64,000 nucleotides of DNA, from the NCBI RefSeq assembly GCF_007830435.1, contig NZ_VLLC01000010.1, positions 62,001-126,000 of the forward strand, given 5' to 3'. How positions within the stretch are numbered: position 1 is the stretch's first letter; each line of letters begins with the position of its first letter. The notes under the pieces were generated by a model. It searched no databases and had not been told where the DNA came from. It saw only the letters and a program-made list of their open reading frames with translations. This DNA comes from Desulfobotulus alkaliphilus. GTDB taxonomy: Bacteria; Desulfobacterota; Desulfobacteria; Desulfobacterales; ASO4-4. Both the position numbers and the translations under genes were made by a program. Positions 4,358 through 50,653 of this stretch are shown here, piece by piece.

Positions 4358-4810
4358 ATGAAACCCTGGCAGATGATTCTTACGGGTATCCTCGGCCTTG
4401 CACTGGGCTCCATGGTTTATATTCTTGACAGACCGGTGGGTATTTTTTCTGTTTTCGGAAATGGGGTGGAGGGTATAGGATTCGGCAGTGTGGGAGACTG
4501 GCTGCCCGATGCCCTGCATCCCTTTGGCATGGCCCTGATAAGCGCAGGGTTTGCAGGGGGCAGGGCCGCATCCTTACGGTTCTGGGCTGTCTTCTGGGGA
4601 ATTGCAGGACTTATCATGGAAACGGGACAGTATTACGGAGAAAGGGCGGCTTCCCTTGTACCGGAAAGCTGGAGCAATATTCCGGTTCTGGATCTTGTGA
4701 TACCCTATTTTGTCCATGGCACCTTTGACCCCATGGATATTATGGGCATCGTACTGGGCAGCGCATCTGCATGGCTCCTTTCCATCTCATGCAAAAAACA
4801 GCAGAATTAA
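4358..4810 (+). CDS. Small polytopic membrane protein, VanZ-like
   Basis: This 150-residue protein has about four hydrophobic segments. The first begins at the N-terminus (MILTGILGLALGSMVYIL) and the last is near the C-terminus (IMGIVLGSASAWLL). The pattern LHPFGMAL...E.GQ...D..DI...LGS resembles VanZ-like proteins, which share E..Q and D..D....G motifs in membrane helices; this is a weak assignment. The ATG follows the lipoprotein stop by 7 nt, so the two genes are probably one transcript. There is no strong Shine-Dalgarno, which suggests translational coupling. Its function is not known. Confidence 0.6.
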   Translation: MKPWQMILTGILGLALGSMVYILDRPVGIFSVFGNGVEGIGFGSVGDWLPDALHPFGMALISAGFAGGRAASLRFWAVFWGIAGLIMETGQYYGERAASLVPESWSNIPVLDLVIPYFVHGTFDPMDIMGIVLGSASAWLLSISCKKQQN

Positions 4811-5073
4811 TGGATTTATTTCATCCGCCACAAGCAAAAAAACTTCCCGAAGAGACCTCTTTAAGCCGCTACTTAAAAAAAAGTTAAGTTTTTCTTTCCT
4901 GCATACGAAATATATAAAAGACAGAAAAATACTGGCCCAAAATGCTGAAAAAGAGCCAGTAAAAAAATTCAAAAACCAAAACAGCAGTATAATCATGGAA
5001 AACCATGATTAAAACCCCGTCGGCCTGAAAAAACTGCGTTTTGAACGGATGATACAACGAAAGGATTCAGCAT

Positions 5074-35580: not shown

Positions 35581-38003
35581 TCCTCTCCCCCTCCCGCAGA
35601 AACCACAGGCAGATCCATCCCCGAATCCTCAAAATGCCTTTTCAGGCGCTCAAACATGGCATCCCTGGCCTCCAGAGTTGCAGAAAAATCCACGTTCCCC
35701 AGAAGACGCTGGACAGCCATCAGATCCTTTAAAAAATCATAGACACTGGTGGCAGACATCTGCTCTGCCACAAGGCTTGCATGCTGGGCATCCAGAAGTT
35801 CCATGGCGGAAACCACCCCCCGCTCATAGGCATCGGTAACCAGCTCCAGATTCTTTGAGGCAGCCGCAGCAGCATCCGAAGAAAGCCGTATGCCCGGCCA
35901 GGATGCCGTGGTCCTGTGCAGGGCCACCCGCATCCTGGCCTCCAGCCCTTCGGCTGTCTGCAATCTGCGGGTACGCAGGGCCTCCAGCCTTTCAAGCCCT
36001 TCATCCAGAGCAGCCGGTCTGGCCCCGCCCGTCATCAAAGGATATGAAGCACGGATTCCCACCTGCCATCCGAAATCCTCGCTTTCCGGCAGCTTTATGG
36101 GCGGCACCCCGGGCATAAGTTCGATTTCCGCAGCACCGCTTCCCCTGCCTTCGGAAACCAGACGCTGACGCATCCCGCCTTCGGCCAAAAGATCCGGCAG
36201 ATACCAGGATCTTCTGGCCGCAAGAATGCCCCTTCGGGCCGCTTCCATGGCCAGCTCCACACGCTCCAGCTCCGGTGCCTGATCCCTGGCCTCTGCCACC
36301 ACAAAATCATGGAAAACTCCCATACGACCCGGATTCTCCGAAAACCAGCGGATACGGGGATCACTCACAAAGAAAAGGGGATCAGAAAGCCTGGTATCCG
36401 AAAGAAACACAGGCTGATCCAGAGGCCGGTTCAAAATAAGGTTCAGGCCCGTTTCCGCCTGCCGCAGCAGAGATCTGGCTTCCAGAAGTGCCTTGCGGGC
36501 CGAAGCCAGACGGCTCTGCCATCGATAAACTTCCGAAGGCCCTGCATATCCAACCTCCCTGCGATTTTCCGCCCGTTCCAGGTTCGCCCGGCTCAGATCC
36601 AGATCATCTTTGCGGATCTGCACCAGACGCCCTGCCCGGAGTACATCCAGAAAAGCCAGGGCCGCAGATTCTGCAATATCCAGCGCCACCTGCCGACGCA
36701 TCACCTGCTGCGTTTTCAGCTCTATGTCCGCCACATCCGCAAGACTTCTCTTTTTTTCGGAAAAAAGAATCTGTCGCAGCATCACTTCTGCCCAAACCTC
36801 CTCTTCGGGCTGACGCCCCATACTGGAAGCCGCATTTTTACTGTCCGTAACACGGCCTTCCAGAGAAAAAAGAGCCTGAGGCCGCAGGGGCGAACGCTGA
36901 CTCCGGGCCAGGGCTTTACGGATGGCCTCCTCCCTTTCCGCCAGTCTGATTTCCAGATTGGCGGAAAGGGCAGCCTGCACGGCCCCGTTAATGGCAAGGG
37001 GCCTGCCAGTGGGATGCGGGTCTTCATGGATCAGATCCGCATCAAGCAGAATATCCCAGTCCGGATACACCCCGATGCGTCTGGCTGTTTCCATATTAAC
37101 CGTAAAATCCATGTCCGGATGAAAGGCAACGGAAAGACTTCCCGCATCCCTGCCCAGAAGAATCTGCTGCACATGCAGGGCAATACGTCTGGAGAGACGA
37201 TTGATACGCTCGGAAGGTGCCATACCCGCAAGAATACCCCTTTCAACCTCATCCCTGCCCCAGAGGGAAAAGGATGGCAGTTTTTTTTCTTCAAGCCCCT
37301 GAATCAGAAGAGCAAATTCATCATTAGAAAATCTCATCAGAGGAGTAATGAATACAGCGTCCACGGATTTCGGAAGAGAAGCCAGTAAAGGAGCTGCTTC
37401 CGATGCCGCAGCAATGAAATCAATCTCCACCCCAAATTTTTTCCCTGCGCTTTTTGTCCTTTCCGCAAGATCAGGCAAGCCAGCCACAATGGTTTCATCA
37501 CCAATGAGGGCCAGCCTTTTAAAGGGTACCATGCGGCCGAAGGCTTCCATGTCCCTGTCAAAATTCTGAAATGATTTGATGTAGTTGAGATTTCTGACCC
37601 CGGAGCTTCCCTGACTTTCGGGCAGATTCTGGAGATTTGCATCAATCACCAGCGAGGCAATGGCAGGTTTTTGAAGATTATCCCTGTGGCAGAGAAGATG
37701 TGAAGAAATAACGCCTGCGGCAATGACCATATCCGCCATGGAATCTGTCAGGGCTCTTTCCACCTGCCGGCCGATTTCCTTCACATCCCAGTTCCCGGAA
37801 AAATGCAGGGCCTCTGGAAAACGGACATCAAATTCATTTTTTGTCAGATCCAGAATCTCGGCCTTCAGCTCTTCAATACCGCCATAACGCATTGCAGGAC
37901 CATCTTCTATGACAGCGATATGCACCACAGGGAGATCCGCAAATACCGGGCTGCCGGAAACAAAGCAGAATATCCCCAGCAGTAAAATAATTTTCCGCCG
38001 CAT
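35577..38003 (-). CDS. Fusion of periplasmic ABC-type binding domain with TolC-family outer-membrane channel
   Basis: After a signal peptide (residues 1-22), residues 24 to about 315 resemble ABC_sub_bind periplasmic proteins (VVHIAVIEDGPAMRYGG, DMVIAAGVISSHLL, VDAVFITPLMRF, FHPDMDFTVNMETARRIG). From about 335 to 790 the sequence is outer-membrane efflux protein: two repeats of long coiled-coil helices (ALDIAESAALAFLDVL, NLERAENRREVGYAGPSEVYRW, VTDAYERGVVSAMELLDAQ). Typical TolC proteins are 420-500 residues; this is 808. The ATG at 38003 follows GGAGGAAG. It is the first gene of the efflux operon; a -35-like TTGACA (38165-38170, minus) lies upstream without a good -10. Confidence 0.85.
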   Translation of the reverse strand: MRRKIILLLGIFCFVSGSPVFADLPVVHIAVIEDGPAMRYGGIEELKAEILDLTKNEFDVRFPEALHFSGNWDVKEIGRQVERALTDSMADMVIAAGVISSHLLCHRDNLQKPAIASLVIDANLQNLPESQGSSGVRNLNYIKSFQNFDRDMEAFGRMVPFKRLALIGDETIVAGLPDLAERTKSAGKKFGVEIDFIAAASEAAPLLASLPKSVDAVFITPLMRFSNDEFALLIQGLEEKKLPSFSLWGRDEVERGILAGMAPSERINRLSRRIALHVQQILLGRDAGSLSVAFHPDMDFTVNMETARRIGVYPDWDILLDADLIHEDPHPTGRPLAINGAVQAALSANLEIRLAEREEAIRKALARSQRSPLRPQALFSLEGRVTDSKNAASSMGRQPEEEVWAEVMLRQILFSEKKRSLADVADIELKTQQVMRRQVALDIAESAALAFLDVLRAGRLVQIRKDDLDLSRANLERAENRREVGYAGPSEVYRWQSRLASARKALLEARSLLRQAETGLNLILNRPLDQPVFLSDTRLSDPLFFVSDPRIRWFSENPGRMGVFHDFVVAEARDQAPELERVELAMEAARRGILAARRSWYLPDLLAEGGMRQRLVSEGRGSGAAEIELMPGVPPIKLPESEDFGWQVGIRASYPLMTGGARPAALDEGLERLEALRTRRLQTAEGLEARMRVALHRTTASWPGIRLSSDAAAAASKNLELVTDAYERGVVSAMELLDAQHASLVAEQMSATSVYDFLKDLMAVQRLLGNVDFSATLEARDAMFERLKRHFEDSGMDLPVVSAGGGEE

Positions 38004-38290
38004 TCTTCCTCCGTCACAGATAAAAACATCGTTCCGCAAGCAGCCAAGATAACTTGCACCAGCACTGTACCGCTGAAGTTACAGCAGTAAAATTTCAGAA
38101 CAGGATGTCTGAACTCTTATCTTTTTTAAAAAATTTCTTCTACCATGCACCCATTCACTAAAACTGTCAAGAAAAGGTAAAGATCACTCACCCTCTTCTT
38201 TTTGCCATAAAACCCTCTGCTGGGACGGGTAAAAATATACTCGGCATGGTCATTTTGGTGACAAATCAAAATTACACTAAAATTTTTAAA

Positions 38291-39460
38291 TCACCTTGTC
38301 TCCACCTCCAGCAAAGACACCCGGCTTCCCGGAGGAAGGGCCTCAAGGAAAGCAGCCAGCCTGTGGGCACCGTAACTGCCCTCCCCGGAAACAAGGCCCT
38401 CCACATCCCCAAGATGGCGAAAACGAACCAGCTCCAGAGGCTCTCTGGTAAACACGGCAATATAGGTGTCCAACTGTGCCACACCCTGCTCAAGGATGGC
38501 GTTGGTGAAAAAATCCCAGGCCTGTTCCGGCACCCTGAGACTGCCCGGCCCTGCGGCAAGGTTGTCTTCCATTACACTTACCCTGCCGTCTGGATAGAGG
38601 TTGAAAAGGGAAAACCAGCCAGACGATGGCAGGTCGTCCATGCGGAAAACCACCTGCTCTCCGTGACGTAGACGGTTGGGCAGGCGTTTTCCCGAAGGCG
38701 ACTCCATGAAAAGTCTGCTTTTACCCGAAGCATATACGGAAAAATCAAAGAGTCCCTTGACTTCCGCAAGGGCTAAAGACTCCCTGCAAAGGCTGATAAT
38801 CCATAGGCCATCCTTTCTTTCCAACGAAAGGGGCAGCACCCTCTCCCCTTCTCCGTGGGGAGATGAAAGAAGGCTTTTCAGCCGCCGTGCCAGAGGACCG
38901 GATGTCAGGGCTTTTGTTCCGTCAAAGCGGAGATGGGCTGGCATGGCAAGGCCTTCGGAAGCCCATATTTTTCTCATGCGTCCGGCAAGGATATCCGCAT
39001 CGGGGCGTATATCCACCTCCATGGCCACATAGTGTACCCCCTGAAGCACGGCATGCTGGGTGCGCCTTGCCCGCTGCATCTGTCTTCCTGCCTTGAGATG
39101 CACCTCTGCGGCCACACGCCTTGATACACTGTCTCCCTGCTGCGTGGTCCTTGTACGGATTTCAGAGGATACCTGCACCTGCATTTCCCTTGAAATGGCA
39201 GACAGAGCCATGGCATCGGCTTCGGCCTGGGAAGGGCCTTCACCCACACCCCTGAGAATATTTTTTTCGGATCGAAGGGTTTGGTACCATTGGGGATGAA
39301 CGGCAAGGGGATAGACAGAAGGGGATTTTATCTCATTTTGAACTGCTGCTGACGGCGCTGGAAGCGTTTTTGGTCCGCAGGCGCTAAGGGCGAAAAAAAG
39401 AAGTGGGAAGATCAGCATACAAAACAGCACTCTTGCATGCCTTTCAGAAAAAGCCTCCAT
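38291..39460 (-). CDS. LPP20-type lipoprotein with DUF4384-like C-terminus
   Basis: The precursor has a lipoprotein signal ending FALSACG. Residues about 45-160 are LPP20-like (GVGEGPSQAEADAMALSAISREMQVQV...VALQGVHYVAMEVDI type pattern). The C-terminal part (about 240-389) resembles DUF4384: F...DLPSSGWFSLFNLYPDGRVSVMED. DUF4384 modules are often found in or near bacterial caspase-like proteins. AGGAGG precedes the ATG at 39460. It lies 173 nt downstream of the caspase gene, separated by a 9-bp tandem repeat. Confidence 0.68.
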   Translation of the reverse strand: MEAFSERHARVLFCMLIFPLLFFALSACGPKTLPAPSAAVQNEIKSPSVYPLAVHPQWYQTLRSEKNILRGVGEGPSQAEADAMALSAISREMQVQVSSEIRTRTTQQGDSVSRRVAAEVHLKAGRQMQRARRTQHAVLQGVHYVAMEVDIRPDADILAGRMRKIWASEGLAMPAHLRFDGTKALTSGPLARRLKSLLSSPHGEGERVLPLSLERKDGLWIISLCRESLALAEVKGLFDFSVYASGKSRLFMESPSGKRLPNRLRHGEQVVFRMDDLPSSGWFSLFNLYPDGRVSVMEDNLAAGPGSLRVPEQAWDFFTNAILEQGVAQLDTYIAVFTREPLELVRFRHLGDVEGLVSGEGSYGAHRLAAFLEALPPGSRVSLLEVETR

Positions 39461-39513
39461 CAAAACGCCTCCTTTGAACAGGTTCAGGGCAGGCATGGGG
39501 CCTGTCTTCTGAA

Positions 39514-39576
39514 GTCTTTAGAGTCTTTGAAATCCTTAAGGTCCTTAGGGTCCTTAAAGTCTTTAAAGTCCTTAAA
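39514..39576. repeat. Seven tandem copies of a 9-bp repeat
   Basis: Seven consecutive units of the form GTCYTTARR, for example GTCTTTAGA, GTCCTTAGG, GTCCTTAAA, with one unit starting ATC. The array sits between the caspase and lipoprotein genes. It is followed by AAAGACCTGAAAAGACC, which could pair with the repeats. It is not a CRISPR: there are no spacers. Confidence 0.85.
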
Positions 39577-39633
39577 AAAGACCTGAAAAGACCCTAAAAT
39601 CCCACAAAACCCTCTAACGAAGCCCTGCCCTGC

Positions 39634-41469
39634 TTATTTCAGGGTTGCCAGCACCCGTTTGGGATCTCCTGTCATGACAGGCATCTGCTCCCGGCCCGAA
39701 CCCCTTCTGGCCTGATGGGGCACCTCCCTTTGCAGATAGGCCGAAAGTTCCGCTGCTGTGATACGGCCATCTTTATTGACATCCGCAGCACCGGAAAGCC
39801 CTGCAATGAAATAATAGGTAAAGAGGGTATGCCCCTTATCCGGATACCAGGTGGCCACCTGACCTGCATCGGCGCTGGTGAAAACAAGGGCATTGTTTAC
39901 CGCACGGCTGCCCGGTACATTGCGCATCATGGAAGAAATATTGGTAAACAGGGCACCGCCTGCCGAATCCCCGGAAAAACAGGCATCCAGAACCACCGTA
40001 AGGCTTTTTGCGGGAAGCTGATCCAGATTGTCATAGAAGACATCCAGAGAATACCCCGTACTGGCAATATAATCCACATGGGCATCTACTGGCACAAGAT
40101 AGGCGGCTCTGCCTTCCGGCCCCGGTGCCCCGTGGCCCGAATAATAAATGAACACATCGGATTCACCGTCCCGGATGAAGTTTCTGAGCCGCCCAGAAGG
40201 ATTGCCTTGGGTTCCAAAGGTGGAAAGAAGATCTGAATTTGTGGCATTGGTCAGATCAATAATATTCCTCTCGCTATAGCCCATTGTGGAAACAAGATAC
40301 TTTTTCATGACCGCCGCATCCCGCTCCGCATAGGCCACATCCACAATGCCCCTGCCCTGGGCCGCATATCGCTGATTGCCGATGATAACAGCCACGGCAT
40401 GGGGGTTGGGTCTTGAAACCTTGGGAATATTTCTTACAAGCTCACTCTTTTCAAGGGAAACAGGTGGTGCTAAATCCTGTGCTGGCGACCAGATAGTTTC
40501 AATAAGTGCATCAGCCTGACCGCCACTGCCTTCGGTTCTCCGGTTTCTGGCAAGGGGCGCAGGCACATCAATGCTGGAAGCATCACCGATAAAGGCAGCA
40601 AAGAGCTTGTCATAACCTTCCTTGGCCATGGCCGCATCGGGATATTTTTCATGAAGAGCCTTGGCCCTTGCAACAGACTGTGCCCTTTCTCCCCTGCCAA
40701 AAGCCGCATACATGGAAGCAATCTCTTTAGAAATAATCTCATCCCGAAGGCCCTTCACAGCACCGTTGCCGGAAAAGCTTTTTTCAGCAGAAATGGCGGC
40801 TGTCAGGGCAGCATCGGTCCGGCCAAGGGCCGCAAGGCTCAAGGCATGGGTGCGTGCGCCCTTTGGATCAAAGGTGAGACCCGAAAGAACCGCCATGCCC
40901 GCATCCGCCTTTCCTTCCTGAATGGCCTTCAAGCCTTCGGCCATGCGCATATCCAGCACCTTATCGTAAAGGGCGGCGATGCGTTTTTCAGATGACCATT
41001 TGCTTTTGGCAGCCCGGATGGTTTCAAGGGCTTTCTGATTCTGGCCCGCAAGGAGAAGGGCTTCCGTATGAATATGGGCATATCTGGGGCTGCTGGCATC
41101 GCTTTTCACCGCCGCTTCCGCAAGGCTCAAGGCTCTGGCAGGGTTTTTCCCGGCATCAATATACATGGATGCAAGGTTGGCCTGCCACTGGGGTTCTGCC
41201 TTGGCCTTTACGGCCTTTTCCATGGCTTCAATGGCTTTGTCCCCAGCACCAAAACGCCAGTAGGCCATGGCGAGGTTGGCGGCATATTCCGGCTCAGGGC
41301 AAAGGGATTCGGCCTTGATGAAAAGCTGAAGGCCCCTTGTTCTATCCTTTTCAAAATCTTTTACCGCCTGAGCTGCAATGTCTCGGGCCACAGGACAGGT
41401 GTCGGCAAGGGCAGGGGTTGCAAGAAGCAAAAAAACGGCAAAGCATAAAAGGGGTTTTACGGGGTTCAT
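39634..41469 (-). CDS. Secreted TPR-caspase (C14 metacaspase-like) protease
   Basis: Signal peptide residues 1-22 (ATPALA), then TPR-like repeats to about residue 290 (PEYAANLAMAYWRFGAGDKAIEAMEKA). A caspase-like C14 domain starts at about 355 (HAVAVIIGNQRYA). The catalytic dyad is present: His446 in IYYSGHGAPG and Cys497 in VVLDACFSG. A calcium-binding-like loop DVNKDGRITAAE occurs at 563-574. The ATG at 41469 follows AAGGAGG and overlaps the upstream antitoxin-like stop (ATGA). It is probably active in the periplasm or exported. The processing target is unknown; the neighbouring DGR and lipoprotein suggest a joint system. Confidence 0.88.
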   Translation of the reverse strand: MNPVKPLLCFAVFLLLATPALADTCPVARDIAAQAVKDFEKDRTRGLQLFIKAESLCPEPEYAANLAMAYWRFGAGDKAIEAMEKAVKAKAEPQWQANLASMYIDAGKNPARALSLAEAAVKSDASSPRYAHIHTEALLLAGQNQKALETIRAAKSKWSSEKRIAALYDKVLDMRMAEGLKAIQEGKADAGMAVLSGLTFDPKGARTHALSLAALGRTDAALTAAISAEKSFSGNGAVKGLRDEIISKEIASMYAAFGRGERAQSVARAKALHEKYPDAAMAKEGYDKLFAAFIGDASSIDVPAPLARNRRTEGSGGQADALIETIWSPAQDLAPPVSLEKSELVRNIPKVSRPNPHAVAVIIGNQRYAAQGRGIVDVAYAERDAAVMKKYLVSTMGYSERNIIDLTNATNSDLLSTFGTQGNPSGRLRNFIRDGESDVFIYYSGHGAPGPEGRAAYLVPVDAHVDYIASTGYSLDVFYDNLDQLPAKSLTVVLDACFSGDSAGGALFTNISSMMRNVPGSRAVNNALVFTSADAGQVATWYPDKGHTLFTYYFIAGLSGAADVNKDGRITAAELSAYLQREVPHQARRGSGREQMPVMTGDPKRVLATLK

Positions 41470-41705
41470 GGTCTCCTCCTTGGTTTTATTGAAACGGTAT
41501 TGCGTATCTTTTCTTTTGGCTCTTCCCAATCCATGTACGCCTCTTCTCCCTTTTCGAGAAGGGCCTCCCTTTCTTCAAGGACGCTTATGTGCCATTCGGG
41601 GGATGGCAGTGTATCGCCTTCCCGGCAAAGGTCATCCCACAGCAGCTCCATGGCAAGAATTTTCTCTTCAAAACTCATGGTTTTCAAGGACTGTACCAGA
41701 CCCAT
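41466..41705 (-). CDS. Addiction-module antitoxin-like protein (TIGR02574 type)
   Basis: A 79-residue protein: MSFEEKILAMELLWDDL, then SPEWHISVLEEREALLEKGEEAYMDWEEPKEKIRN. This matches the putative addiction-module component family, usually paired with a RelE/ParE toxin. No such toxin follows; instead the gene overlaps the TPR-caspase start by 4 nt. AAAGGAGGG lies upstream of the ATG at 41705. It could be a recruited regulator of the caspase or an orphan. The 169 nt between this gene and the template repeat hold no other frame of note. Confidence 0.72.
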   Translation of the reverse strand: MGLVQSLKTMSFEEKILAMELLWDDLCREGDTLPSPEWHISVLEEREALLEKGEEAYMDWEEPKEKIRNTVSIKPRRRP

Positions 41706-41874
41706 TGGAACCCTCCTTTCCTTTTTTCGTACAGGCTTTAAAGAAAACACCACCCCAAAGAGGCCGTGCTTTCCTCCATGTTCTTCGTCCGGCAGGCCGG
41801 AGCGGGAGAGAAGACGGGACACGGGACGCACACGCATTCCATCCGTGAACGAAACACCCCCACCTTCCCGCGTA

Positions 41875-41988
41875 CTGCAAGGCGAAACCCCAGGTTGTTG
41901 TTGCGATTATCCGCCCCGTTCCTGTTGCGATTGGCCGAACGGCAGTTCCTGGCGTTGTTGTTCCAGCCGCCGCCCCGATTGACGCGGC
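41875..41988 (-). repeat. DGR template repeat (TR)
   Basis: A 114-bp segment almost identical to the 3' end of the target gene at 43935-44048. Every one of the 14 differences is at an adenine on the coding (minus) strand of TR. They fall in 12 AAY (Asn) codons, at first or second position, ten of which now encode V, Y, S, I, R, S, Y, Y, G or V in the target. It begins 5 bp after the reverse transcriptase stop. The downstream spacer (41706-41874) contains a small hairpin (TCCGG-CAGG-CCGGA) and could be the Avd/RT-binding part of the template RNA. The apparent reading frame across TR is not a protein gene. Confidence 0.93.
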
Positions 41989-41993
41989 GTTCT

Positions 41994-43013
41994 TCAGTGC
42001 GCCTTCTCCCCAAAAAGCCCACGGCTTCGCAGCATAAAGGTATCCGCAAAGGCCATATGGGCAAAAACAGAACGAAGACCGTCCTCGTACTGTGTTTCTG
42101 TGATGTTTCCTGTCTTACAGGCTTTTTCCCTTTCTTTCAAACCTTTTAACATGCGCCTCCGGTTGGGGGCGGAAAGCCGGAGAAGACCGGGATATATCCG
42201 GAATCCGAGAAAGGGCAAACCATGGATATTTCCATGGATCCGGGTGACACTGGGCTTCAGCCTGAGCCGCAGCACTTCCCCGAGAAAGGCTTCCACGGTT
42301 TCAAGGAGGTGACGCATGGCCAGGGCCGAATCCCCGAAGGCCACCATGTCGTCCATGTAACGCAGATAAAAGGGAAGCCCCAGATCATCTTTCAGATGAT
42401 GATCCAGAGGCGAAAGGTAAAGATTGCCAAAAAACTGGCTGGTCAGGTTGCCAATGGGCATTCCGATACCCGGTGCTTCCCCTCCTGCTGCAAGGATTTT
42501 ATCGAGAAGATCCAGCACAGAATCTTCCGCCACCTTCCGGCCCACCATCTTCCTTAAAATGCTGTGATCCACACTGGCAAAATAGCTTTCCACATCCACC
42601 TTCAGATGATAGCGGCTTTTCCGGAGAAAGGCCTGGGCACGACCCACGGCCTTGTGCATTCCCTTCCCGACCCGGTTGGCATAGGTATCGTAAATCATGG
42701 AAGGTTCAAAAACCGGCTCCAGTACCGCCACCAGCGCATGATGCACCACCCTGTCCCGGAAGGGAGCGACACTGATGACCCTGCGCTTGGGATCCTGAAT
42801 GACAAATTTCCGAAAGGGCCCTGGACGATAAGAGCCGGAAACAAGCTCTTCGCCAAGGCGTAAAAGCTCTCCTTCCTGCTGAAGATGAAAGCGGCAGGCC
42901 TCCCGGCCCCTGCCCGACCCCCGAAAGGCTTTCCGGAAAGCGGCTTCAAGGTTTTCCCGGCTCACCAGCCTTTCCCAAAGACCGGTAGGAATTATCCTCC
43001 GCTTTTTGCCCAT
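41994..43013 (-). CDS. Diversity-generating retroelement reverse transcriptase
   Basis: The 339-residue reverse transcriptase shows motif A KVDVESYFASVDH (Asp140), the DGR/retron-type motif 4 region GMPIGNLTSQFFGNLYLSPLD (IGNLTSQ at 187-193) and catalytic YMDD (219-222). The palm/thumb remainder ends near residue 339. The IGxxxSQ motif is typical of DGR enzymes, which copy TR RNA with adenine-directed errors. The ATG at 43013 follows GGAAGGATGG and overlaps the avd-like gene by 22 nt; the frame extends to 43064 but that adds Avd-coding overlap only. Confidence 0.94.
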   Translation of the reverse strand: MGKKRRIIPTGLWERLVSRENLEAAFRKAFRGSGRGREACRFHLQQEGELLRLGEELVSGSYRPGPFRKFVIQDPKRRVISVAPFRDRVVHHALVAVLEPVFEPSMIYDTYANRVGKGMHKAVGRAQAFLRKSRYHLKVDVESYFASVDHSILRKMVGRKVAEDSVLDLLDKILAAGGEAPGIGMPIGNLTSQFFGNLYLSPLDHHLKDDLGLPFYLRYMDDMVAFGDSALAMRHLLETVEAFLGEVLRLRLKPSVTRIHGNIHGLPFLGFRIYPGLLRLSAPNRRRMLKGLKEREKACKTGNITETQYEDGLRSVFAHMAFADTFMLRSRGLFGEKAH

Positions 43014-43327
43014 CCGCCCACCATCCTTCCCGCTTCTTCCACCATATCGGAAATCCGCTGCCATGTTCCATTTGCCAGATAGGTTCTTTCCCTTGCAAGA
43101 CGCAGAAAGACCCGCAGTTTTTCAAGATCCAGGTTGATTTTTCGCAGAATCGGCCCCCGGTTCCGGGTATAGATGGCTTCGAGAATGTCTTCCATCACAG
43201 CCATGGCCAGCACCACAGTACGGTCTCCCATGGTAAAACGGGCGGAACGGGGATAGCTTTCCACTGCGGTAAGGATGGCTTCCAGGGTACGGTACCAGTG
43301 CAGATACAAAGGGTAATCTTCCTTCAT
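42992..43327 (-). CDS. avd: DGR accessory variability determinant (Avd-like)
   Basis: A basic four-helix-bundle type protein of 111 residues (YPLYLHWYRTLEAILTAVESYPRSARFTMGDR, then LAMAVMEDILEAIYTRNR, INLDLEKLRVFLRLARER). The pattern L......P...R..LG......LE.I..A......K...L......LR.LLRLA is typical of Avd/four-helix DGR proteins. Avd binds the reverse transcriptase and template RNA. It overlaps the HRDC gene by 4 nt and the RT gene by 22 nt. Confidence 0.87.
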   Translation of the reverse strand: MKEDYPLYLHWYRTLEAILTAVESYPRSARFTMGDRTVVLAMAVMEDILEAIYTRNRGPILRKINLDLEKLRVFLRLARERTYLANGTWQRISDMVEEAGRMVGGWAKSGG

Positions 43328-43761
43328 TTGCGCTCCTGAAAGCTTTGCACCAGTTGCAGGATGTCTTTTCCGTATTTTTCAAGTTTGGCGGCTCCAAACC
43401 CCTTCACCGTTTTCAGGGCCTCCAGAGTCTGGGGCATGGTGCGGGCAATCTCCCCAAGCTCCCGGTTGTTGGCCACCAGAAAAACGGGAACCCCTTCCTT
43501 TTCCGCCCGGCTTTTGCGCCACTCTTTCAGGCGGTGGAAAAAGGCCTTGGCCGGGCCATTCAGGTCGAGTTCCGGCGGCGGGCTTTCTCCTCCAGCCAAA
43601 GGGTCGCAGAAGAGAAGAACCGTCCAGTAACTTCTGCCCCCCTCCTGAAAAAACTCCGCCTTCCAGGAGACAAGCTGTTTGTTCAGGAGAAAACGATCCA
43701 GAAGGCTGTCATCAAACCCGCCTTTTTCCGGATGAAAGGGAAAGGTCAGAATTTTGAACAT
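43324..43761 (-). CDS. DGR-associated HRDC-domain protein
   Basis: A 145-residue protein. The N-terminal half (MFKILTFPFHPEKGGFDDSLLDRF...) is like proteins found in DGR loci. The C-terminal half is an HRDC nucleic-acid-binding domain (FFHRLKEWRKSRAEKEGVPVFLVANNRELGEIARTMPQTLEALKTVKGFGAAKLEKYG). HRDC accessory proteins are known in a subset of DGRs. AGGAGGATTC precedes the ATG at 43761. It is the first gene of the HRDC-avd-RT-TR unit, overlapping avd by 4 nt. Confidence 0.88.
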   Translation of the reverse strand: MFKILTFPFHPEKGGFDDSLLDRFLLNKQLVSWKAEFFQEGGRSYWTVLLFCDPLAGGESPPPELDLNGPAKAFFHRLKEWRKSRAEKEGVPVFLVANNRELGEIARTMPQTLEALKTVKGFGAAKLEKYGKDILQLVQSFQERK

Positions 43762-43795
43762 GAATCCTCCTGAGGGATAGGGAAGGCTTCGCCCG

Positions 43796-43855
43796 GCGGC
43801 TCGTGTTTTGGGACGTATGGCCATAAACCCGGCCACGTCCCAAAACACGAGCCGC
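43796..43855. repeat. 21-bp perfect inverted repeat upstream of the DGR genes
   Basis: GCGGCTCGTGTTTTGGGACG plus one T, mirrored at 43835-43855, with an 18-nt loop that contains another GGCC...GGCC pair. It lies between the HRDC start and the target-gene 3' end. It could be a terminator for the target gene, or a cruciform used in DGR retrohoming. Confidence 0.85.
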
Positions 43856-43860
43856 TTGAG

Positions 43861-43876
43861 GCGGCCTTGCGGCCGC
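43861..43876 (-). other. GC hairpin with GCAA tetraloop downstream of the DGR variable repeat
   Basis: On the coding strand GCGGCC-GCAA-GGCCGC, a perfect 6-bp stem with a four-base loop, lies 58 bp beyond the end of the variable repeat. DNA hairpins with short purine-rich loops close to VR ends increase DGR homing in Bordetella phage; here the distance is larger, so the role is only suggested. Confidence 0.55.
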
Positions 43877-43926
43877 AAAAAGGAAAAAAACGCTACAAAA
43901 GGTAAAAAAATAAAAAAGACAAAAGG

Positions 43927-44781
43927 TTAAGATCCTGCAAGGCGAAACCCCAGGACGTTGCCGCGATAATCCGCCCCGTACCTGCTGCGATTGGCCGAAC
44001 GGCAGCGCCTGGCGATGCTGTACCAGCCGCCGCCCCGAACGACGCGGCTACCGCCTGCGCTTGACGCATATATGGGATCCGTTTTGGGCAATGTCTCATA
44101 ATCTTTTTTGTACACATCCTGAACCCACTCCCACACATTACCGTGCATGTCATACAACCCCCAGGCATTGGGTTTAAAGGAAGCCACTTTGACTGTGGTT
44201 TTTCTGTAACTGCCCTTAGGACACCCGGATAAGGGATAGTTACCGTCATAATTGGCATCACTTGTGGAAAGGCAGGTGCCAAAAGCAAAAGGCGTATCTG
44301 TCCCCGCACGGGCCGCATACTCCCACTCGGCTTCTGTGGGCAGGCGTACCGTAAGTGTTTTATCCATGGCATTGAGTTTTTTAATGAATTCCTGAACATC
44401 ATTCCAGGAAACCTGCTCCACAGGGCAATCTTTGCCGCAGTTTTTAAAACGGGAAGGATTGCTGCCCATCACCCTTTCCCACTGCGCTTGCGTCACTTCC
44501 GTGGTCATCATGTAAAAATCTTTAGAAATCTTAACCCGGTGACGTTTTTCATCATCAAACCGCCCCGGCTCATTTGAAGGAGACCCCATCCAGAACTCCC
44601 CGGCAGGAATCTTCACAAAGGTCATGCCCAAAGAATTGGTGATTTTATCTCCGGAAACTGAGCCACCGATGCGGTAATTATCTTCCCAAACAGGAATAAA
44701 AGACTCATCCATCCACCCAAAAACTGGCAGGGTCAGAAATGAAAAAAACAAAATACATGTAAAAATTTGCCGCAGCACCAT
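43927..44781 (-). CDS. Secreted FGE-sulfatase/C-type-lectin protein, DGR variable target
   Basis: Signal peptide residues 1-22 (ending PVFG), then the FGE-like C-type-lectin fold: GMTFVKIPAGEFWMGSP, VTQAQWERVMGSNPSRF, RLPTEAEWEYAARAG and WGLYDMHGNVWEWVQD. The C-terminal 39 residues (RVVRGGGWYSIARRCR... to FRLAGS) are the variable part and match the template repeat. The catalytic Cys pair of true formylglycine-generating enzymes is not evident, so it is probably a binding protein displaying a diversified ligand surface outside the cytoplasm. GGAGGAATC precedes the ATG. It is transcribed in the same direction as the DGR genes. Confidence 0.9.
   Translation of the reverse strand: MVLRQIFTCILFFSFLTLPVFGWMDESFIPVWEDNYRIGGSVSGDKITNSLGMTFVKIPAGEFWMGSPSNEPGRFDDEKRHRVKISKDFYMMTTEVTQAQWERVMGSNPSRFKNCGKDCPVEQVSWNDVQEFIKKLNAMDKTLTVRLPTEAEWEYAARAGTDTPFAFGTCLSTSDANYDGNYPLSGCPKGSYRKTTVKVASFKPNAWGLYDMHGNVWEWVQDVYKKDYETLPKTDPIYASSAGGSRVVRGGGWYSIARRCRSANRSRYGADYRGNVLGFRLAGS
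43935..44048 (-). repeat. DGR variable repeat (VR) within the target gene
   Basis: The target's codons 245-283, 114 bp aligned without gaps to TR 41875-41988. There are 14 substitutions, all at TR adenines and no other base. Identity is complete over the last 26 bp of the coding strand (CTGGGGTTTCGCCTTGCAG and adjoining bases vary only at AAY codons), as expected for the initiation of mutagenic homing region. Confidence 0.93.
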
Positions 44782-44902
44782 GATTCCTCCATGCTCTGAA
44801 ATCCGTCAAAAACCAAAAAAGCCTCAAAAAAAAGATGCCCCCACCATAAACCATGGAGACATCAGGAAACAAGCCTTCAATTTAAACATAAAAAGGAGTG
44901 CC

Positions 44903-44939
44903 CCCCCGTGCTTGCCCAAAACTAAAGCAGGCACGGGGG
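44903..44939. repeat. GC-rich palindrome (CCCCCGTG.../...CACGGGGG)
   Basis: An imperfect inverted repeat (arms CCCCCGTGCTTGC and GCAGGCACGGGGG) followed by CTTGCCCCTACAATA. It belongs to the same small palindrome family as 62557-62616 and the half copy at 46423-46450. It lies upstream of the DGR target gene. Confidence 0.65.
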
Positions 44940-44952
44940 CTTGCCCCTACAA

Positions 44953-45230
44953 TATATTCCAAACGGTCAACGGTGAAACTACGAAAAGCCCCCCGCTCTT
45001 GCCAGAATTTCAGATGTTCACACCCCTTTTTGCTTTATAAGAAATTTCAGGCGTACGATGTACAGCAGAGGCCATTGTAATAGTAGAAGCGGCTTACAGC
45101 CGCTTTAAAGAATGCGCCAGGATGGCGCATCTACAAAACGCAGCAATACGGTGCAGGCTGCTGTTCAGGAGTTTTTCAACATCGTTTTAAGACTGGCCCG
45201 TGTATCAAAAAAGACCGTGCGGAGTATAAA
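44953..45230 (+). repeat. Dispersed repeat family P, copy 1 (upstream of Rpn gene)
   Basis: The left end is ATTCCAAACGGTCAACGGTGAAA and the right end AAAGACCGTGCGGAGTATAAA. Both ends are nearly repeated at 62514-62669, and they are mutually inverted (GGTC / GACC, ATTCC / GGAGTAT). In this copy the interior contains a GTAG...CTAC palindrome (45083-45134) with two hairpins, AAGCGGCT/AGCCGCTT and ATGCGCC/GGCGCAT. No gene is visible in the 508-bp gap 44782-45290. Confidence 0.6.
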
Positions 45231-45290
45231 ACAGAAATTTTACTCTATCCCCTCTTTTCATCCCCCAAAGCGCCTGCTATTCTGACTTCC

Positions 45291-46349
45291 ATGAAAAAGA
45301 AAAAGCAGGACAATTATCTGGATGATCTCCTGAAGAGCAACCCCCATGATGCTCTGGCAAAGAGAATCCTTGGCAAAAAAAGCCATGCCGTGGATTTTTT
45401 CAAAGTCATGCTGCCAAAAGAGGTGGTCGCCCTTCTTGATATGGAAACCCTCAAGGCGGAAAAGGACAGTTTTGTCAGCCAAAAACTCCGGAGTGCCTTC
45501 AGCGACCTTGTGTTCAGCGTAAAGCTCAAAGACAGCCGGACAAAGGCTTTCCTCTACACCCTCATTGAACACAAAAGCCAGCCAGATATCTGGTATATCC
45601 TCCAGATACTCAAATATATGAGTGCCGTATGGGAAAGTTTTCACAGAAATACCCCAAAAAAACTTCTGCCCCCCATTCTTCCTCTGGTAGTCTACCACGG
45701 CAGGGAAGGATGGCTTTCAAGGGATATCGTGGATCTGTTAGACGGTGGTCATCCAGACATCTTCCGGCCCTTCACGCCCCAATTCGATACGCTGCTTTGT
45801 GATGTCAGCACCCTTGACCCCAATACCCTCCAGCACAATATTGTGCTAAAGGTTTTCTTAAAGATTCTGGGTTCCGCCATGGGGCCTGAAATCAAAGAGG
45901 ATCTGCCGGAGCTGATTCAGATGCTGAGTGAATTGATGGCGCCCGGCAAAACGACATTGGAATACATCGAAATCTTTCTGCGCTACGTCATTTCGGCAAG
46001 CCAGGACATTGACGAGGCCACCATTGAAAAGGCCCTCGAAAACAGCGGATACATGGAGGTGCTTATGCCCACACTGGCCCAAAAATGGATTGAAGAAGGC
46101 ATGATGATGGGGGAACAGAGAGGCGAACAAAGAGGCCTGATTATGGGAGAACAGAGAGGTGAACAGAAAGGCCTGATGCGCATGATGCAGGAAAAATATG
46201 CAACCATCATGAACCTTCAGAAATACAGGATGAAACCAGAAGAGATAGCGGATATCACAAGCCTCACCCCTGAAAAGGTCAGAGAAATTCTTGCTGCCGG
46301 TGACAAGGGCCTGGATCTTCTCATTAGTGATAATACCACCAAACATTAG
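45291..46349 (+). CDS. Rpn-family PD-(D/E)XK nuclease / putative transposase
   Basis: The 352-residue protein has the Rpn pattern: MKKKKQDNYLDDLLKSNPHDALAKRIL, then SDLVFSVKLKD and LYTLIEHKSQPDIWYILQILKYM, giving the D...E-x-K nuclease core. PPILPLVVYHGREGW follows. The C-terminal tail has MGEQRGEQRG repeats (about 275-292) typical of these proteins. Rpn proteins promote RecA-independent recombination and include toxic nucleases. A truncated second copy follows at 46633. The start at 45291 is supported by the near-identical leader of that copy. Confidence 0.87.
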   Translation: MKKKKQDNYLDDLLKSNPHDALAKRILGKKSHAVDFFKVMLPKEVVALLDMETLKAEKDSFVSQKLRSAFSDLVFSVKLKDSRTKAFLYTLIEHKSQPDIWYILQILKYMSAVWESFHRNTPKKLLPPILPLVVYHGREGWLSRDIVDLLDGGHPDIFRPFTPQFDTLLCDVSTLDPNTLQHNIVLKVFLKILGSAMGPEIKEDLPELIQMLSELMAPGKTTLEYIEIFLRYVISASQDIDEATIEKALENSGYMEVLMPTLAQKWIEEGMMMGEQRGEQRGLIMGEQRGEQKGLMRMMQEKYATIMNLQKYRMKPEEIADITSLTPEKVREILAAGDKGLDLLISDNTTKH

Positions 46350-46422
46350 TCATTGTTCTGTACCTAAAAACTAAAAGGCAGGAGTGGGAAATGGGCTTCG
46401 AGAGCCTCAGCCACCGGGCTTT

Positions 46423-46450
46423 TGTAGGGGCAGGCCCCTGTGCCTGCCCG
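46423..46450 (+). repeat. Half copy of the GTAGGGGCAGGCCCC palindrome
   Basis: TGTAGGGGCAGGCCCCTGTG followed by CCTGCCCG. It matches the left arm of 62557-62616; the right arm is missing. It lies in the 283-bp gap between the Rpn gene and the truncated copy. Confidence 0.6.
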
Positions 46451-46573
46451 TCCTTCACCCTGATCACCCATCAAATTTCATGAATACCCACAAGGATTTT
46501 GACTCTGCCAGTGCCAAGGTCCCAGATGCCCCCCCCCTTTGCTTTTCAAGAAATTGCAGAGCTTCCACATGAA

Positions 46574-46749
46574 ACAGAAATTTTACTCTCTCCCTCTTTT
46601 CATCCCCCAAGGCTCCTGCTATTCTGCCTTCCATGAAAAAGAAAGAGCAGGACACTTATCTGGAAGATCTCCGGAAGAACAATCCCGGATACATGGAGGT
46701 GCTTATGCCCATACTGGCCCAAAAGAAGAAAGGAATCATGGGGCAATGA
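46574..46749 (+). pseudogene. Collapsed Rpn gene copy (leader plus first and late codons)
   Basis: The leader 46574-46632 is nearly identical to that before the intact Rpn gene (45231-45290). The frame 46633-46749 reads [18 protein letters not shown] joined to [20 protein letters not shown] and stops. The first 18 codons and a block from about codon 242 of the intact protein are fused, so roughly 220 codons are deleted in frame. The remaining 38-codon frame overlaps the next gene's ATG (ATGA). It may now act as a translated leader for the kinase gene. Confidence 0.8.
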
Positions 46750-47321
46750 AGCCTGTCTGCTGGATCATCGCCGGACCCAATGGGGCAGGAAAGACCACCT
46801 TTGCCATGGAATATCTGCCCCGGATGGCAGGATGCACCCACTTTGTGAATGCAGATCTCATTGCTGCGGGGCTCTCTCCCCTTGCGCCGGAGCGGGAACT
46901 GCTGACCGCCAGCAGAATTTTTTTAAAGGAGATTGAGACCCGTATACAAAAACGTAGAGATTTTGCCTTTGAAAACACCCTCGCAGGGCGCAGCTATCTG
47001 GCTCTGGCAGATCGTTTGCGGGAGGAGGGCTGGCTGATTAAATTGATTTATCTGGCTCTGCCAGATGTTGAAATATCAAAATTACGGGTTTTCGAACGGG
47101 TCGCCCATGGCGGGCATTCCATTCCCTTGAGGGACATTGAGCGACGTTTCCCCCGGAGCCTGCGTCTCCTGCTGCTCGATTACAGTTACCGGGTAAATAC
47201 ATGCAGCTGTTTTATGAACATCGGAGACAGTCCTGCTCTTATATTTGAACAATGCGGCAGCAGTCGCACCATCAATCATGAAGACTTTTATCACCTTCTC
47301 ATCCGGGAGGCCGGACTATGA
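46746..47321 (+). CDS. Zeta-toxin-like P-loop kinase
   Basis: A 191-residue protein with Walker [10 protein letters not shown] (10-18 region), [30 protein letters not shown] and a later [19 protein letters not shown] block. This is the zeta-toxin/chloramphenicol-phosphotransferase-like ATPase family often found as toxin or nucleotide-sugar kinase. The start codon overlaps the truncated Rpn frame's stop, and its own stop overlaps the next small gene (ATGA). The frame is open upstream to 46539, but that part encodes the remnant. Toxicity is unproven. Confidence 0.78.
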
Positions 47322-47509
47322 ATATCAGGCAGGAAAAAAAACCGTCCGCCGAGGCCCAGCAACAGCTGGAAGCCCTGCGGACGGCCGTGGGAAAAGCCCT
47401 GGAAAAAAAACGACGGCTGGGCCAGTATGCGGTTTTCTGGGAAAATGGCAGGCCAGTTCTGGTGGGCGAAGATGCGCCCCAAACACAAAAAGGGGTCAGA
47501 CCCCTTTAA
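47318..47509 (+). CDS. Small protein paired with the zeta-like kinase
   Basis: A 63-residue protein with a helical charged N-terminal half ([26 protein letters not shown]) and a beta-like end ([17 protein letters not shown]). Its ATG overlaps the kinase stop by 4 nt, an arrangement typical of toxin-antitoxin operons, so it is the likely partner or antitoxin. I do not recognise a named family with certainty. Confidence 0.62.
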
Positions 47510-47538
47510 ACGTTTAAACGCAGAAAGAAACACAATCC

Positions 47539-49176
47539 ATGAAAATTGCCATGGCCCAGCTCAATCCTCTGGTGGGAGATCTTGAAGGAAATGCCACAAA
47601 AATCATCGAAGCCTGCGAAAGGGCCGGACAGGAAGGGGCTGCCCTTGTGATTTTTCCGGAGCTCACCCTCACGGGCTATCCTCCCTTAGATCTTCTGGAA
47701 CGAAAGGCCTTTATTGAGGCCAATCTTGCCATGAAGGAAAGGCTCATCGGAAAAATAAAGGACATCGCTTTTCTTTTCGGCTATGTGGCCATGAATCCGG
47801 ACGATGAAGGGCCGGAGCTGCAGAATGCCGCTGTGTTTGCAAAGGACGGAATAATTCTCGGGGAAATCCGGAAAGTGCTGCTGCCCCAGTACGATGTCTT
47901 TGATGAATGCCGCTACTTTGCACCGGGAAAAACCGCCACACCCGTTCTCTATGGGGGGCTGCGCTTCGGTGTCACCATCTGCGAAGATGCCTGGAACAGC
48001 GGCCACATCCCTGCCAAAAAAGGCTACACCCAAAATCCCGTGGCAGACCTTGCCCCGGGCTGCGATGTTCTCATCAATCTCTCGGCCTCTCCCTTCCATG
48101 TGGACAAGGTCCGCCTGCGGGATCAGCTCTTTTCAGGCATTGCAAGGCAATACGCCATTCCCGTTCTGGAAGTGAATCAGGCAGGAGCCAATGACACCCT
48201 CGTATTTGACGGAGCCAGCACGGCCTATGACGAAAAGGGCCATATCCTTGGAAGGGCAGCTGCCTTTGAGGAAGATCTTATCCTTGTGGATCTGGAAAAG
48301 AAAACCGGTGACATCCGAAAGCTGCCGGAAACCGAAGAGGACCAGATCCATAGGGCGCTGGTAACGGGAATCAGGGATTATCTGCATAAGTGCGGTTTTA
48401 CAAAGGCTGTGGTGGGGTCTTCCGGCGGAATCGATTCCGCCCTTGTTCTGGCCCTGGCTGCGGAAGCCCTCGGTGCTGAAAATATCATCAGTGTCTTCAT
48501 GCCCGGCCCCTACACGGCAGCGGATAATTTTGAGGATACCCGGCTGCTGGCGGAAAATCTGAAAATCCGCCTCGACATTGTGCCCATTCAGCAGACCATG
48601 GAAGCCATGGCGGCCTCATCTTCCCTTTTTGATCCTGAAAGCCATGGCATTACGGAGCAGAACCTGCAGGCCCGCATCCGGGGAACCCTGCTCATGGCCT
48701 ATGCCAACCGCTACCATGCCCTGGCCCTGCCCACGGGCAACAAGGCGGAAATGGCCGTGGGCTACAGCACCCTTTACGGTGACATGAACGGCGGGCTTGC
48801 CGTGCTGGGGGATGTTTCCAAGACAAGGGTCTGGGCCCTTTCCCGCCGCATCAATGAAAGGGCTGGTTTTGCCCTGATTCCTGAGCGTATTATCGAAAAA
48901 GCACCCAGTGCGGAACTCAAACCCGACCAGAGGGATCAGGACGATCTGCCGGACTATGCCGTGGTGGATGCCATTGTGGCCCACCATGTGGAAGACCTTG
49001 AAGATGCGGAAAAAATCATTGCAAGGGGATATGCGGAAGATGCCGTGCGGGATGTGATCCGGAGAATCCAGTTCAATGAATACAAGCGCCAGCAGGCAGC
49101 CCCTGTGATCCGTATCACCTCCAGAAGTTTCGGATACGGCAGGCGCTACCCCATGGCATGCAGGCTGCGGTATTAA
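47539..49176 (+). CDS. nadE: Glutamine-dependent NAD+ synthetase
   Basis: The last step of NAD synthesis. The N-terminal nitrilase-type glutaminase has the Glu-Lys-Cys triad (PELTLTGYPP, RKVLLPQYD, TICEDAW). The C-terminal synthetase has the P-loop SSGGIDSALVLALAAEALG and ALPTGNKAEMAVGYSTLYGD. Length 545 is normal for the two-domain enzyme. It ends with a 4-nt convergent overlap with livF. Confidence 0.97.
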   Translation: MKIAMAQLNPLVGDLEGNATKIIEACERAGQEGAALVIFPELTLTGYPPLDLLERKAFIEANLAMKERLIGKIKDIAFLFGYVAMNPDDEGPELQNAAVFAKDGIILGEIRKVLLPQYDVFDECRYFAPGKTATPVLYGGLRFGVTICEDAWNSGHIPAKKGYTQNPVADLAPGCDVLINLSASPFHVDKVRLRDQLFSGIARQYAIPVLEVNQAGANDTLVFDGASTAYDEKGHILGRAAAFEEDLILVDLEKKTGDIRKLPETEEDQIHRALVTGIRDYLHKCGFTKAVVGSSGGIDSALVLALAAEALGAENIISVFMPGPYTAADNFEDTRLLAENLKIRLDIVPIQQTMEAMAASSSLFDPESHGITEQNLQARIRGTLLMAYANRYHALALPTGNKAEMAVGYSTLYGDMNGGLAVLGDVSKTRVWALSRRINERAGFALIPERIIEKAPSAELKPDQRDQDDLPDYAVVDAIVAHHVEDLEDAEKIIARGYAEDAVRDVIRRIQFNEYKRQQAAPVIRITSRSFGYGRRYPMACRLRY

Positions 49177-49883
49177 GCCCCATGCCCCAGATAGGCAGAA
49201 TGGATCTCCGGATTGGCAAGAAGGCTCTCTGCCGTATCCGCCAGAACCACCTTTCCCACCTCCAGCACATAGCCCCGGTGGGCCAGACGCAGGGCAGCCC
49301 GGGCATTCTGCTCCACCAGAACCACGGTAACACCGCTGCTGTTAATTTCCCGGATGGTTTCAAAAATGGCCTTGATGATGAGGGGAGCAAGGCCTAAGGA
49401 AGGCTCATCCAGAAGCAGCAGCCGGGGGTGGGCCATCAGTGCCCTTCCTATGGCCAGCATCTGCTGCTCTCCACCGGAAAGGGTGCCGGCGAGCTGCCTG
49501 CGTCTTTCCTTCAGAATGGGAAAAAGGGAAAAAATCCAGTCACGGGTTCTGGCATCCCGGTTGCGGTCTCTGCTGGTGAAGGCTCCCAGCCTTAAGTTTT
49601 CCGATACGGTGAGGGTGCCGAACACCCGCCTCCCTTCGGGAACCTGGGCAATGCCCATTTCCACAATTTTATGGGCGGGCAGGGTATGAATGGGCGTACC
49701 TTCAAAGACAATGCTGCCGGATGCGGGTTTCACAAGGCCGCTGATGCCCATGAGTGTCGTGGATTTTCCCGCACCATTGGCGCCGAGAACACTGACAATC
49801 TCCCCTTCCGCCACCTCCATGTCAATGCCGTGCAGGGCCTCCACATTACCGTATTTCACCACAAGATTCTCAAGGCTCAGCAT
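49173..49883 (-). CDS. livF: Branched-chain amino-acid ABC transporter ATPase LivF
   Basis: ATP-binding subunit (236 residues): Walker A GANGAGKST, signature LSGGEQQMLAIGRAL, Walker B LLLLDEPSLGL. The short LivF-type C-terminus (GKVVLADTAESLLANPEIHSAYLGHG) is diagnostic. It is the last gene of the livK-H-M-G-F cluster; the ATG overlaps the livG end by 7 nt. Confidence 0.95.
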   Translation of the reverse strand: MLSLENLVVKYGNVEALHGIDMEVAEGEIVSVLGANGAGKSTTLMGISGLVKPASGSIVFEGTPIHTLPAHKIVEMGIAQVPEGRRVFGTLTVSENLRLGAFTSRDRNRDARTRDWIFSLFPILKERRRQLAGTLSGGEQQMLAIGRALMAHPRLLLLDEPSLGLAPLIIKAIFETIREINSSGVTVVLVEQNARAALRLAHRGYVLEVGKVVLADTAESLLANPEIHSAYLGHGA

Positions 49884-50653
49884 GCATCCTCTTCCTCGTC
49901 ACTGCCCAGATAGGCCTCAATGACTCTGGGGTTGTTTTTTACCTCTTCGGGACGGCCCTCGGCAATTTTTGTACCATACTCAATGACCACCAGTTTTTCA
50001 CAGGCCCGCATGACAAGACCCATATCATGCTCAATGAGCAGTACGGTAATCCCTTTGCGGCTGATTTCCCGGATCAGATGGAGCAGTTCCGCCGTTTCCT
50101 GATCATTCATCCCGCCTGCGGGTTCATCCAGAATAATGAGACGGGGACGGCTTGCAAGGGCGCGGGCAATCTCAAGGAGGCGCTGCTTTCCATAGGAAAG
50201 ACTGGAAGCTGAAAGACCCGCAGATTCCCACAGATCCACAAATTCCAGCACTTCCTTTGCCGTTTCAAGGGCTTTTTTCTCTTCCCTGCGCTGCCCCGGT
50301 GTACGGATCATGGAAGCAAAGATACCGGATTTCATGCGGCAGTGGCATCCGGCCAGCACATTTTCCACCACCGACATATTCTGAAAAAGACGTATGCTCT
50401 GAAAGGTCCGGGCAATGCCCATATCCACAATCTTATGGGGCTTTTTCCCCTTTACGGACCTGCCTTCAAAAAGAATCTCACCGGAATCAGGGGTATAATT
50501 TCCTGTAATCAGGTTGAAGACCGTGGTTTTTCCGGCACCGTTGGGACCGATAAGGCCCACAACATCCCCGGCGTCCACGGAAAAACTCACCCGGTTAACG
50601 GCGGTGAGACCACCAAAGGTTTTTACAACCTTTTCAAGGGATAAAAGGCTCAT
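49877..50653 (-). CDS. livG: Branched-chain amino-acid ABC transporter ATPase LivG
   Basis: ATPase of 258 residues with Walker [17 protein letters not shown], the LivG-specific insertion region (ARTFQSIRLFQNMSVVENVLAGCH), signature LSYGKQRLLEIARAL and Walker B LIILDEPAGGMN. The tail carries AEGRPEEVKNNPRVIEAYLGSDEEED. It overlaps livM by 4 nt and livF by 7 nt. Confidence 0.95.
   Translation of the reverse strand: MSLLSLEKVVKTFGGLTAVNRVSFSVDAGDVVGLIGPNGAGKTTVFNLITGNYTPDSGEILFEGRSVKGKKPHKIVDMGIARTFQSIRLFQNMSVVENVLAGCHCRMKSGIFASMIRTPGQRREEKKALETAKEVLEFVDLWESAGLSASSLSYGKQRLLEIARALASRPRLIILDEPAGGMNDQETAELLHLIREISRKGITVLLIEHDMGLVMRACEKLVVIEYGTKIAEGRPEEVKNNPRVIEAYLGSDEEEDAC

Follow-up and report, generated by a model that had tools for sequence, protein, structure and literature searches.

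We analyzed a 64,000-nt stretch of the Desulfobotulus alkaliphilus genome (hereafter the window). On its minus strand we found, in this order, a target gene, hairpins, genes for an HRDC-domain protein, a bAvd-like protein and a reverse transcriptase (RT), a template repeat (TR), a PF09720 antitoxin gene, a TPR-caspase gene and a lipoprotein-like gene. The HRDC-domain accessory protein (145 aa; 43324..43761; PF00570, 2.9e-21) and the bAvd-like accessory protein (111 aa; 42992..43327; PF22296, 1.1e-14) are encoded by genes that overlap by 4 nt. The RT of the diversity-generating retroelement (DGR) type (41994..43013; PF00078, 9.4e-17; IGNLTSQ and YMDD motifs) has 339 aa from the ATG at 43013 or 356 aa from an alternative ATG at 43064, and overlaps the bAvd gene by 22 or 73 nt, respectively; RT searches used positions 41994-43022, three codons beyond the inner ATG. 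Its closest PDB entry is 8ub7 (E 8e-47), titled 'Reverse transcriptase', which we take to be the DGR enzyme of the Bordetella phage BPP-1. The reading frames of the RT, bAvd, HRDC and target genes are all open. The original prediction of RT, Avd-like and HRDC genes overlapping between two repeats agrees with both the reading frames and Pfam. Within the window there were no Rfam matches at gathering scores and no tRNA genes.

The TR (41875..41988, minus strand, 114 nt) starts 5 nt past the end of the RT gene, and the last base of the variable repeat (VR; 43935..44048, minus strand) lies 5 nt ahead of the target stop codon. Realignment bore out the coordinates and counts of the ungapped 114-bp repeat that had been predicted. 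The 114 columns contain 14 differences, and all 14 fall at TR adenines on the coding (minus) strand, as had also been claimed. Altogether, 14 of the 28 TR adenines are altered in the VR, compared with none of the 86 other positions; the chance that 14 random TR mismatches would all fall on A is 1.3e-10. The absence of non-A differences implies that the last transfer was recent or that the sequence is constrained. The replacing bases are G (seven), T (six) and C (one). As predicted for the Asn codons, 10 of the 12 AAY codons of the TR are changed in the VR (to V, Y, S, I, R, S, Y, Y, G and V). Adenines beyond these codons are unaltered (0 of 4, versus 14 of 24 inside), a difference that is not significant (Fisher p = 0.098). 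Inspection of the flanks showed that the TR/VR likeness ends on either side, and the pair is the longest among the direct-repeat families listed for positions 38000-50000.

The VR encodes the C-terminus of a stand-alone FGE/C-type-lectin protein of 284 aa (43927..44781, minus strand; PF03781, 3.5e-52). An AlphaFold model of this target, based on 27 sequences, has a pLDDT of 85.7 and a pTM of 0.83. Foldseek matched the model to PvdO (5hha, E 2e-21), to the Treponema variable protein (2y3c, E 2e-17, rank 4) and also to formylglycine-generating enzymes, so that Pfam and structural matches both support the predicted target type. The protein was further claimed to be secreted; a signal-like stretch at its N-terminus, judged by eye alone, points the same way, and from its sequence the target is probably an exported binding protein. 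According to the part of Roux et al. (PMC8144416) available to us, a membrane or signal stretch is found at the N-terminus in most clusters of cellular DGR targets. FGE paralogues are present at other places in the genome. The copy on contig C48, which is 66% identical, was considered as an old VR and ruled out by its many non-A differences from the TR.

Folding of the region past the VR revealed two hairpins on the minus strand. The first is a short GC-rich hairpin with a 6-bp stem and a GCAA loop, 58 nt past the VR (43861..43876). The second is a long perfect hairpin with a 21-bp stem and an 18-nt loop that begins 79 nt past the VR (43796..43855; z 15.1, 40 shuffles). The 161-nt stretch with the hairpins has a fold z of -8.7, equalled by none of 200 shuffles. 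There is no T run directly past the 21-bp hairpin on the coding strand, which makes it unlike an intrinsic terminator; by analogy with the BPP-1 model, it is a candidate target-site cruciform with a possible role in target recognition. The phage DGR hairpins described in the available part of PMC3240598 have stems of 7-10 bp and 4-nt loops and lie 4-34 bp past the VR, and the 21-bp hairpin falls outside these ranges in stem, loop and distance. Long post-VR hairpins also occur in relatives, namely at locus L159 (22 bp, 78 nt on), which has no HRDC gene, and at locus L045 (34 positions, 60 nt on), which has one. A tie between HRDC and strong post-VR hairpins found no support: with the window itself excluded, hairpins with z of at least 4 were found in 4 of the 20 loci that have HRDC and in 10 of the 60 that do not (p = 0.74). 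A 15-nt hairpin sequence at 43851-43865, the 9-nt core of which is unique within the window, recurs past the VR 4957-5088 of locus L165; two loci are too few to build on.

The adenine-only differences, the RT, bAvd and the C-type-lectin target support, at the level of sequence, the predicted DGR, and we conclude with high confidence that the element is complete and intact. As read from the aligned repeats, the adenine-only differences constitute a record of past transfer. By the BPP-1 model, the TR would be transcribed and then copied by the RT and bAvd into a cDNA that carries errors at adenines. With priming at the 3' end of the VR, this cDNA would take the place of the VR in the 3'-terminal part of the FGE/C-type-lectin gene. 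The presumed ligand face would thereby vary at no more than 12 Asn-coded positions, while the scaffold would stay constant. The same model suggests that the HRDC protein probably opens strands or binds a junction at the target, where the hairpin may also be used.

Since the TR and VR form a direct repeat and FGE paralogues exist elsewhere in the genome, a plain duplication of the FGE gene end followed by drift, with no retroelement involved, might be proposed. We regard this as next to impossible, and the adenine bias (1.3e-10) refutes it; in addition, the RT and bAvd genes adjoin the repeats, and the 66%-identical C48 paralogue departs from the TR at numerous non-A positions, the pattern expected of plain drift. 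A DGR that was formerly active and is now silent, with its parts intact and its VR fixed, would agree with the finding of just one VR for the TR. We consider such silencing unlikely, however, given the open frames of the RT, bAvd, HRDC and target genes and the identity of TR and VR at all 86 non-A positions.

The original prediction had also proposed looking for further VRs of this TR in the genome. DNA and pattern searches (at most 3 mismatches) of the whole genome returned the TR and the one VR only, and no TR-matching VR pattern was found in viral contigs. The same genome contains a second complete DGR (L155 4733-7821; G000:C14:110732-113820) with its own TR (L155 5520-5647), an Avd-like ORF and an RT with IGNLTSQ and YVDD motifs. 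It is flanked by two VRs (4733-4860 and 7697-7821), in which every mismatch in the aligned parts (22 and 25, respectively) is at A. The RT of the second DGR has no match in the two sister species. Look-alikes of its TR were observed at five loci, L201 and L205 in the same genome (G000:C8, C5) and L195, L198 and L200 in the sister genome G002 (C11, C43). They differ from it at 20-26 of 41 template A and at 6-13 of 87 other bases, and are possible remote or orphaned VRs of the second DGR. No RT of the second-DGR type was found in G002, though TR-like sequences are present there. Weaker matches to this TR exist, some of them with poorer alignments.

The RT searches retrieved 63 loci from genome contigs and 41 from viral contigs. 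At E 1e-60, RT matches came from 10 genomes out of 146, one of the 10 being that of the window, and 15 plasmid records had a related RT at E 1e-40, the best being 47% identical. For the TR/VR scan we used 116 loci, comprising these 104 and 12 longer or whole-contig stretches that cover 12 RT matches in other genomes. Same-strand TR/VR pairs with at least 9 mismatches were identified in 79 of the 116. In 90 pairs of the relatives, 1397 of 1426 mismatches are at A and 66 pairs are A-only, a share of A that is inflated by design because the scan allows mismatches at one kind of base and the filter demands 80% at A.

The order VR-HRDC-(Avd)-RT-TR recurs in related loci, and iterated profiles detected HRDC in 32 and Avd in 39 of 117 loci, the window included. 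In a quick tree of 99 RTs (RTs under 280 aa were dropped), the window RT joins those of L156 (54% identity) and L157 with a support of 100* and falls among the RTs of HRDC DGRs. The presence of HRDC requires 5 changes on this tree versus about 26 in shuffles, suggesting that HRDC marks a branch. Counting the window, all 20 HRDC loci in which the TR could be placed have it past the RT midpoint, versus 8 of 51 others, with 28 unplaced; in three of the 20 (L039, L053 and L055) the TR is deep within the RT frame and by a stricter rule is not downstream. The link between HRDC and TR placement was rejected as a series of independent events, as the trait is distributed along the branches of the RT tree and a paired test had no power. 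Fusions were counted per ORF among ten targets or target-like ORFs. Five are caspase-PEGA-FGE fusions (three in L156, one each in L046 and L163), which begin with signal-like stretches as judged by eye, two are NACHT-FGE fusions (L164, L165) and two are kinase-FGE fusions (L036, L025); in the ORF of L020, FGE alone was recognized.

The whole DGR lies in a stretch of about 9.3 kb (38213..47528) that is lacking in both of the same-genus genomes compared by alignment. The match with G002 (about 90% identical DNA) stops at 38212 and restarts at 47529, with 82 bp between, and that with G001 (about 75% identical) stops at 38198 and restarts at 47536, with 73 bp between; G002 carries about 350 bp of dispersed repeat at the left edge. 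Besides the DGR and the caspase gene, two further genes were noted in the stretch, one of them zeta-toxin-like and the other YhgA-like (PF04754, putative transposase). The window RT has no match in the two genomes, and because both are without the RT and the surrounding stretch, they hold no orthologous VR for comparison. Inspection of the flanks revealed no target-site duplication, and G+C per kb is 0.47-0.54 within the stretch versus 0.49-0.58 outside, with no sharp step. This distribution suggests that the 9.3 kb were gained in this lineage, a simpler reading than loss in two lineages. Within 45226-46724, the PF04754 gene occupies 45291-46349, and its start and an inner stretch are repeated at 46569-46724, overlapping the zeta-toxin-like ORF; a second copy of the gene has apparently left this remnant. 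Other repeats, dispersed and at most about 350 bp long, occur in both orientations at about 17.9-18.3, 20.9-21.1, 25.0-25.4, 26.7-27.1, 55.4-55.8 and 62.3-62.5 kb of the window and are common to several places in G002 L148, and are perhaps a small non-coding repeat family.

The TPR-caspase gene (39634..41469; PF00656, 1.2e-15) is on the same strand as the DGR, with its ATG 405 nt past the TR and the small PF09720 antitoxin gene between them. It encodes 611 aa from the ATG at 41469, with a signal-like N-terminus by eye (searches used 39634-41472, one codon beyond this ATG). The next gene (38291..39460, minus strand) is lipoprotein-like, with a lipobox by eye and an LPP20 match (PF02169, 7.2e-5) under the gathering score. 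The caspase family (E 1e-45) is present in 15 of 194 genomes, its own included, and has no match in the two sister species. We compared 16 caspase loci, namely the window, L160, L021 and 13 stretches of other genomes. An FGE or DGR RT gene was found near the caspase in the first three and in none of the 13 others, although one could be missed in L168 and L182, where the contigs are short; the caspase pair is thus separate from DGRs in general. Homologues of the lipoprotein-like gene or of the DUF4384 gene of L160 were detected in 9 of the 13 (E 0.01). One of these, at L182, was found with the window's gene and follows a similar caspase, and eight were found with that of L160. By Pfam, this third gene is LPP20 below the cut-off in the window, DUF4384 in L160 and DUF4384 below the cut-off in L021, and the window's gene shows no similarity to the other two (phmmer, E 0.01). 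MoxR, vWA and STAND domains were absent from the nine window proteins scanned.

The caspase may be a partner of the DGR target, and the position of the caspase pair close to three stand-alone FGE targets is no more than suggestive. The DGR might then serve a split exported conflict module, in which the diversified FGE protein would sense a ligand and the caspase and its lipoprotein-like partner would act. This is consistent with the caspase-PEGA-FGE proteins in L156 (the nearest DGR relative), L046 and L163, all with signal-like N-termini by eye, and with the caspase family near stand-alone FGE targets in the L021 and L160 DGR loci. Two caspase neighbours were seen among 115 loci versus 0.022 expected (Poisson P 2.4e-4, a rough, post hoc value that assumes a 4.5-Mb genome and a 6-kb reach). 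We nevertheless hold such a module to be improbable. The 13 caspase loci of other genomes yielded no FGE or DGR RT, L021 was picked for its DGR and L160 was first met likewise, and the lipoprotein-like gene has no match at E 0.01 to the DUF4384-type genes of these two loci, which gives a conserved trio no support. The antitoxin gene separates the TR from the caspase, and gene order differs in L021. Genes resembling toxin-antitoxin systems, recognized by Pfam in the window and by eye in L160 and L021, suggest that the association could be explained by shared residence in islands.

A wider proposal is that an exported surveillance module, made up of the FGE lectin, the caspase and perhaps also the lipoprotein-like gene, has its sensor diversified by the DGR. 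It would be a split, extracytoplasmic version of the caspase-PEGA-FGE fusions of the nearest DGR relative, and the whole would have been gained in this species as one 9.3-kb island. We consider this quite unlikely, its odds being reduced by the third gene, which has no detectable similarity to those beside the other two DGRs. In the open-licence literature we found no paper joining diversity-generating elements to exported caspase, DUF4384 or PEGA. If the caspase link were true, it would indicate bacteria in which both a hypervariable sensor and a caspase are extracytoplasmic.

Caspase domains within or beside DGR targets are known from cyanobacteria and from one further organism, according to the available parts of two papers (PMC7517822 and PMC10907252, respectively). 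The latter organism is a purple sulphur bacterium. In the conflict-linked DGRs, as far as the accessible text of the sources extends, C-type-lectin targets are joined to or adjoin caspase-like, kinase and NACHT/STAND domains, and some are exported (PMC10907252, PMC7517822, PMC7159879). In contrast, the target described here is a bare FGE protein, and the caspase is a separate gene.

The BPP-1 DGR has a C-type-lectin target, as here, and its gene order is VR-Avd-TR-RT. Unlike in BPP-1, the TR comes after the RT in the present element, and HRDC is added. Adenine mutagenesis, Avd, the RT and a post-VR hairpin are likenesses to the BPP-1 DGR as presented in the portion of PMC3240598 at hand, in which the hairpin has 8 bp, a 4-nt loop and a 4-bp spacer, versus 21 bp, 18 nt and 79 nt here. 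The location of the TR downstream of the RT is that of the group 2 cassette of Schillinger et al. (PMC3521204), with no difference seen from the part of the description available.

The Treponema denticola DGR (TvpA; 2y3c), as described in the available sections of PMC4891356, resembles the present element in its FGE-type C-type-lectin target, its overlapping HRDC accessory gene and its variation mostly at Asn codons. Its accessory gene lies between the TR and the RT, whereas here the TR follows the RT and bAvd is also present. Since HRDC-bearing DGRs with FGE targets are already in print for T. denticola (PMC4891356, in the same sections), the element is ordinary as a DGR; as a clean case with bAvd, HRDC and a single known target, it is useful for probing the role of HRDC.
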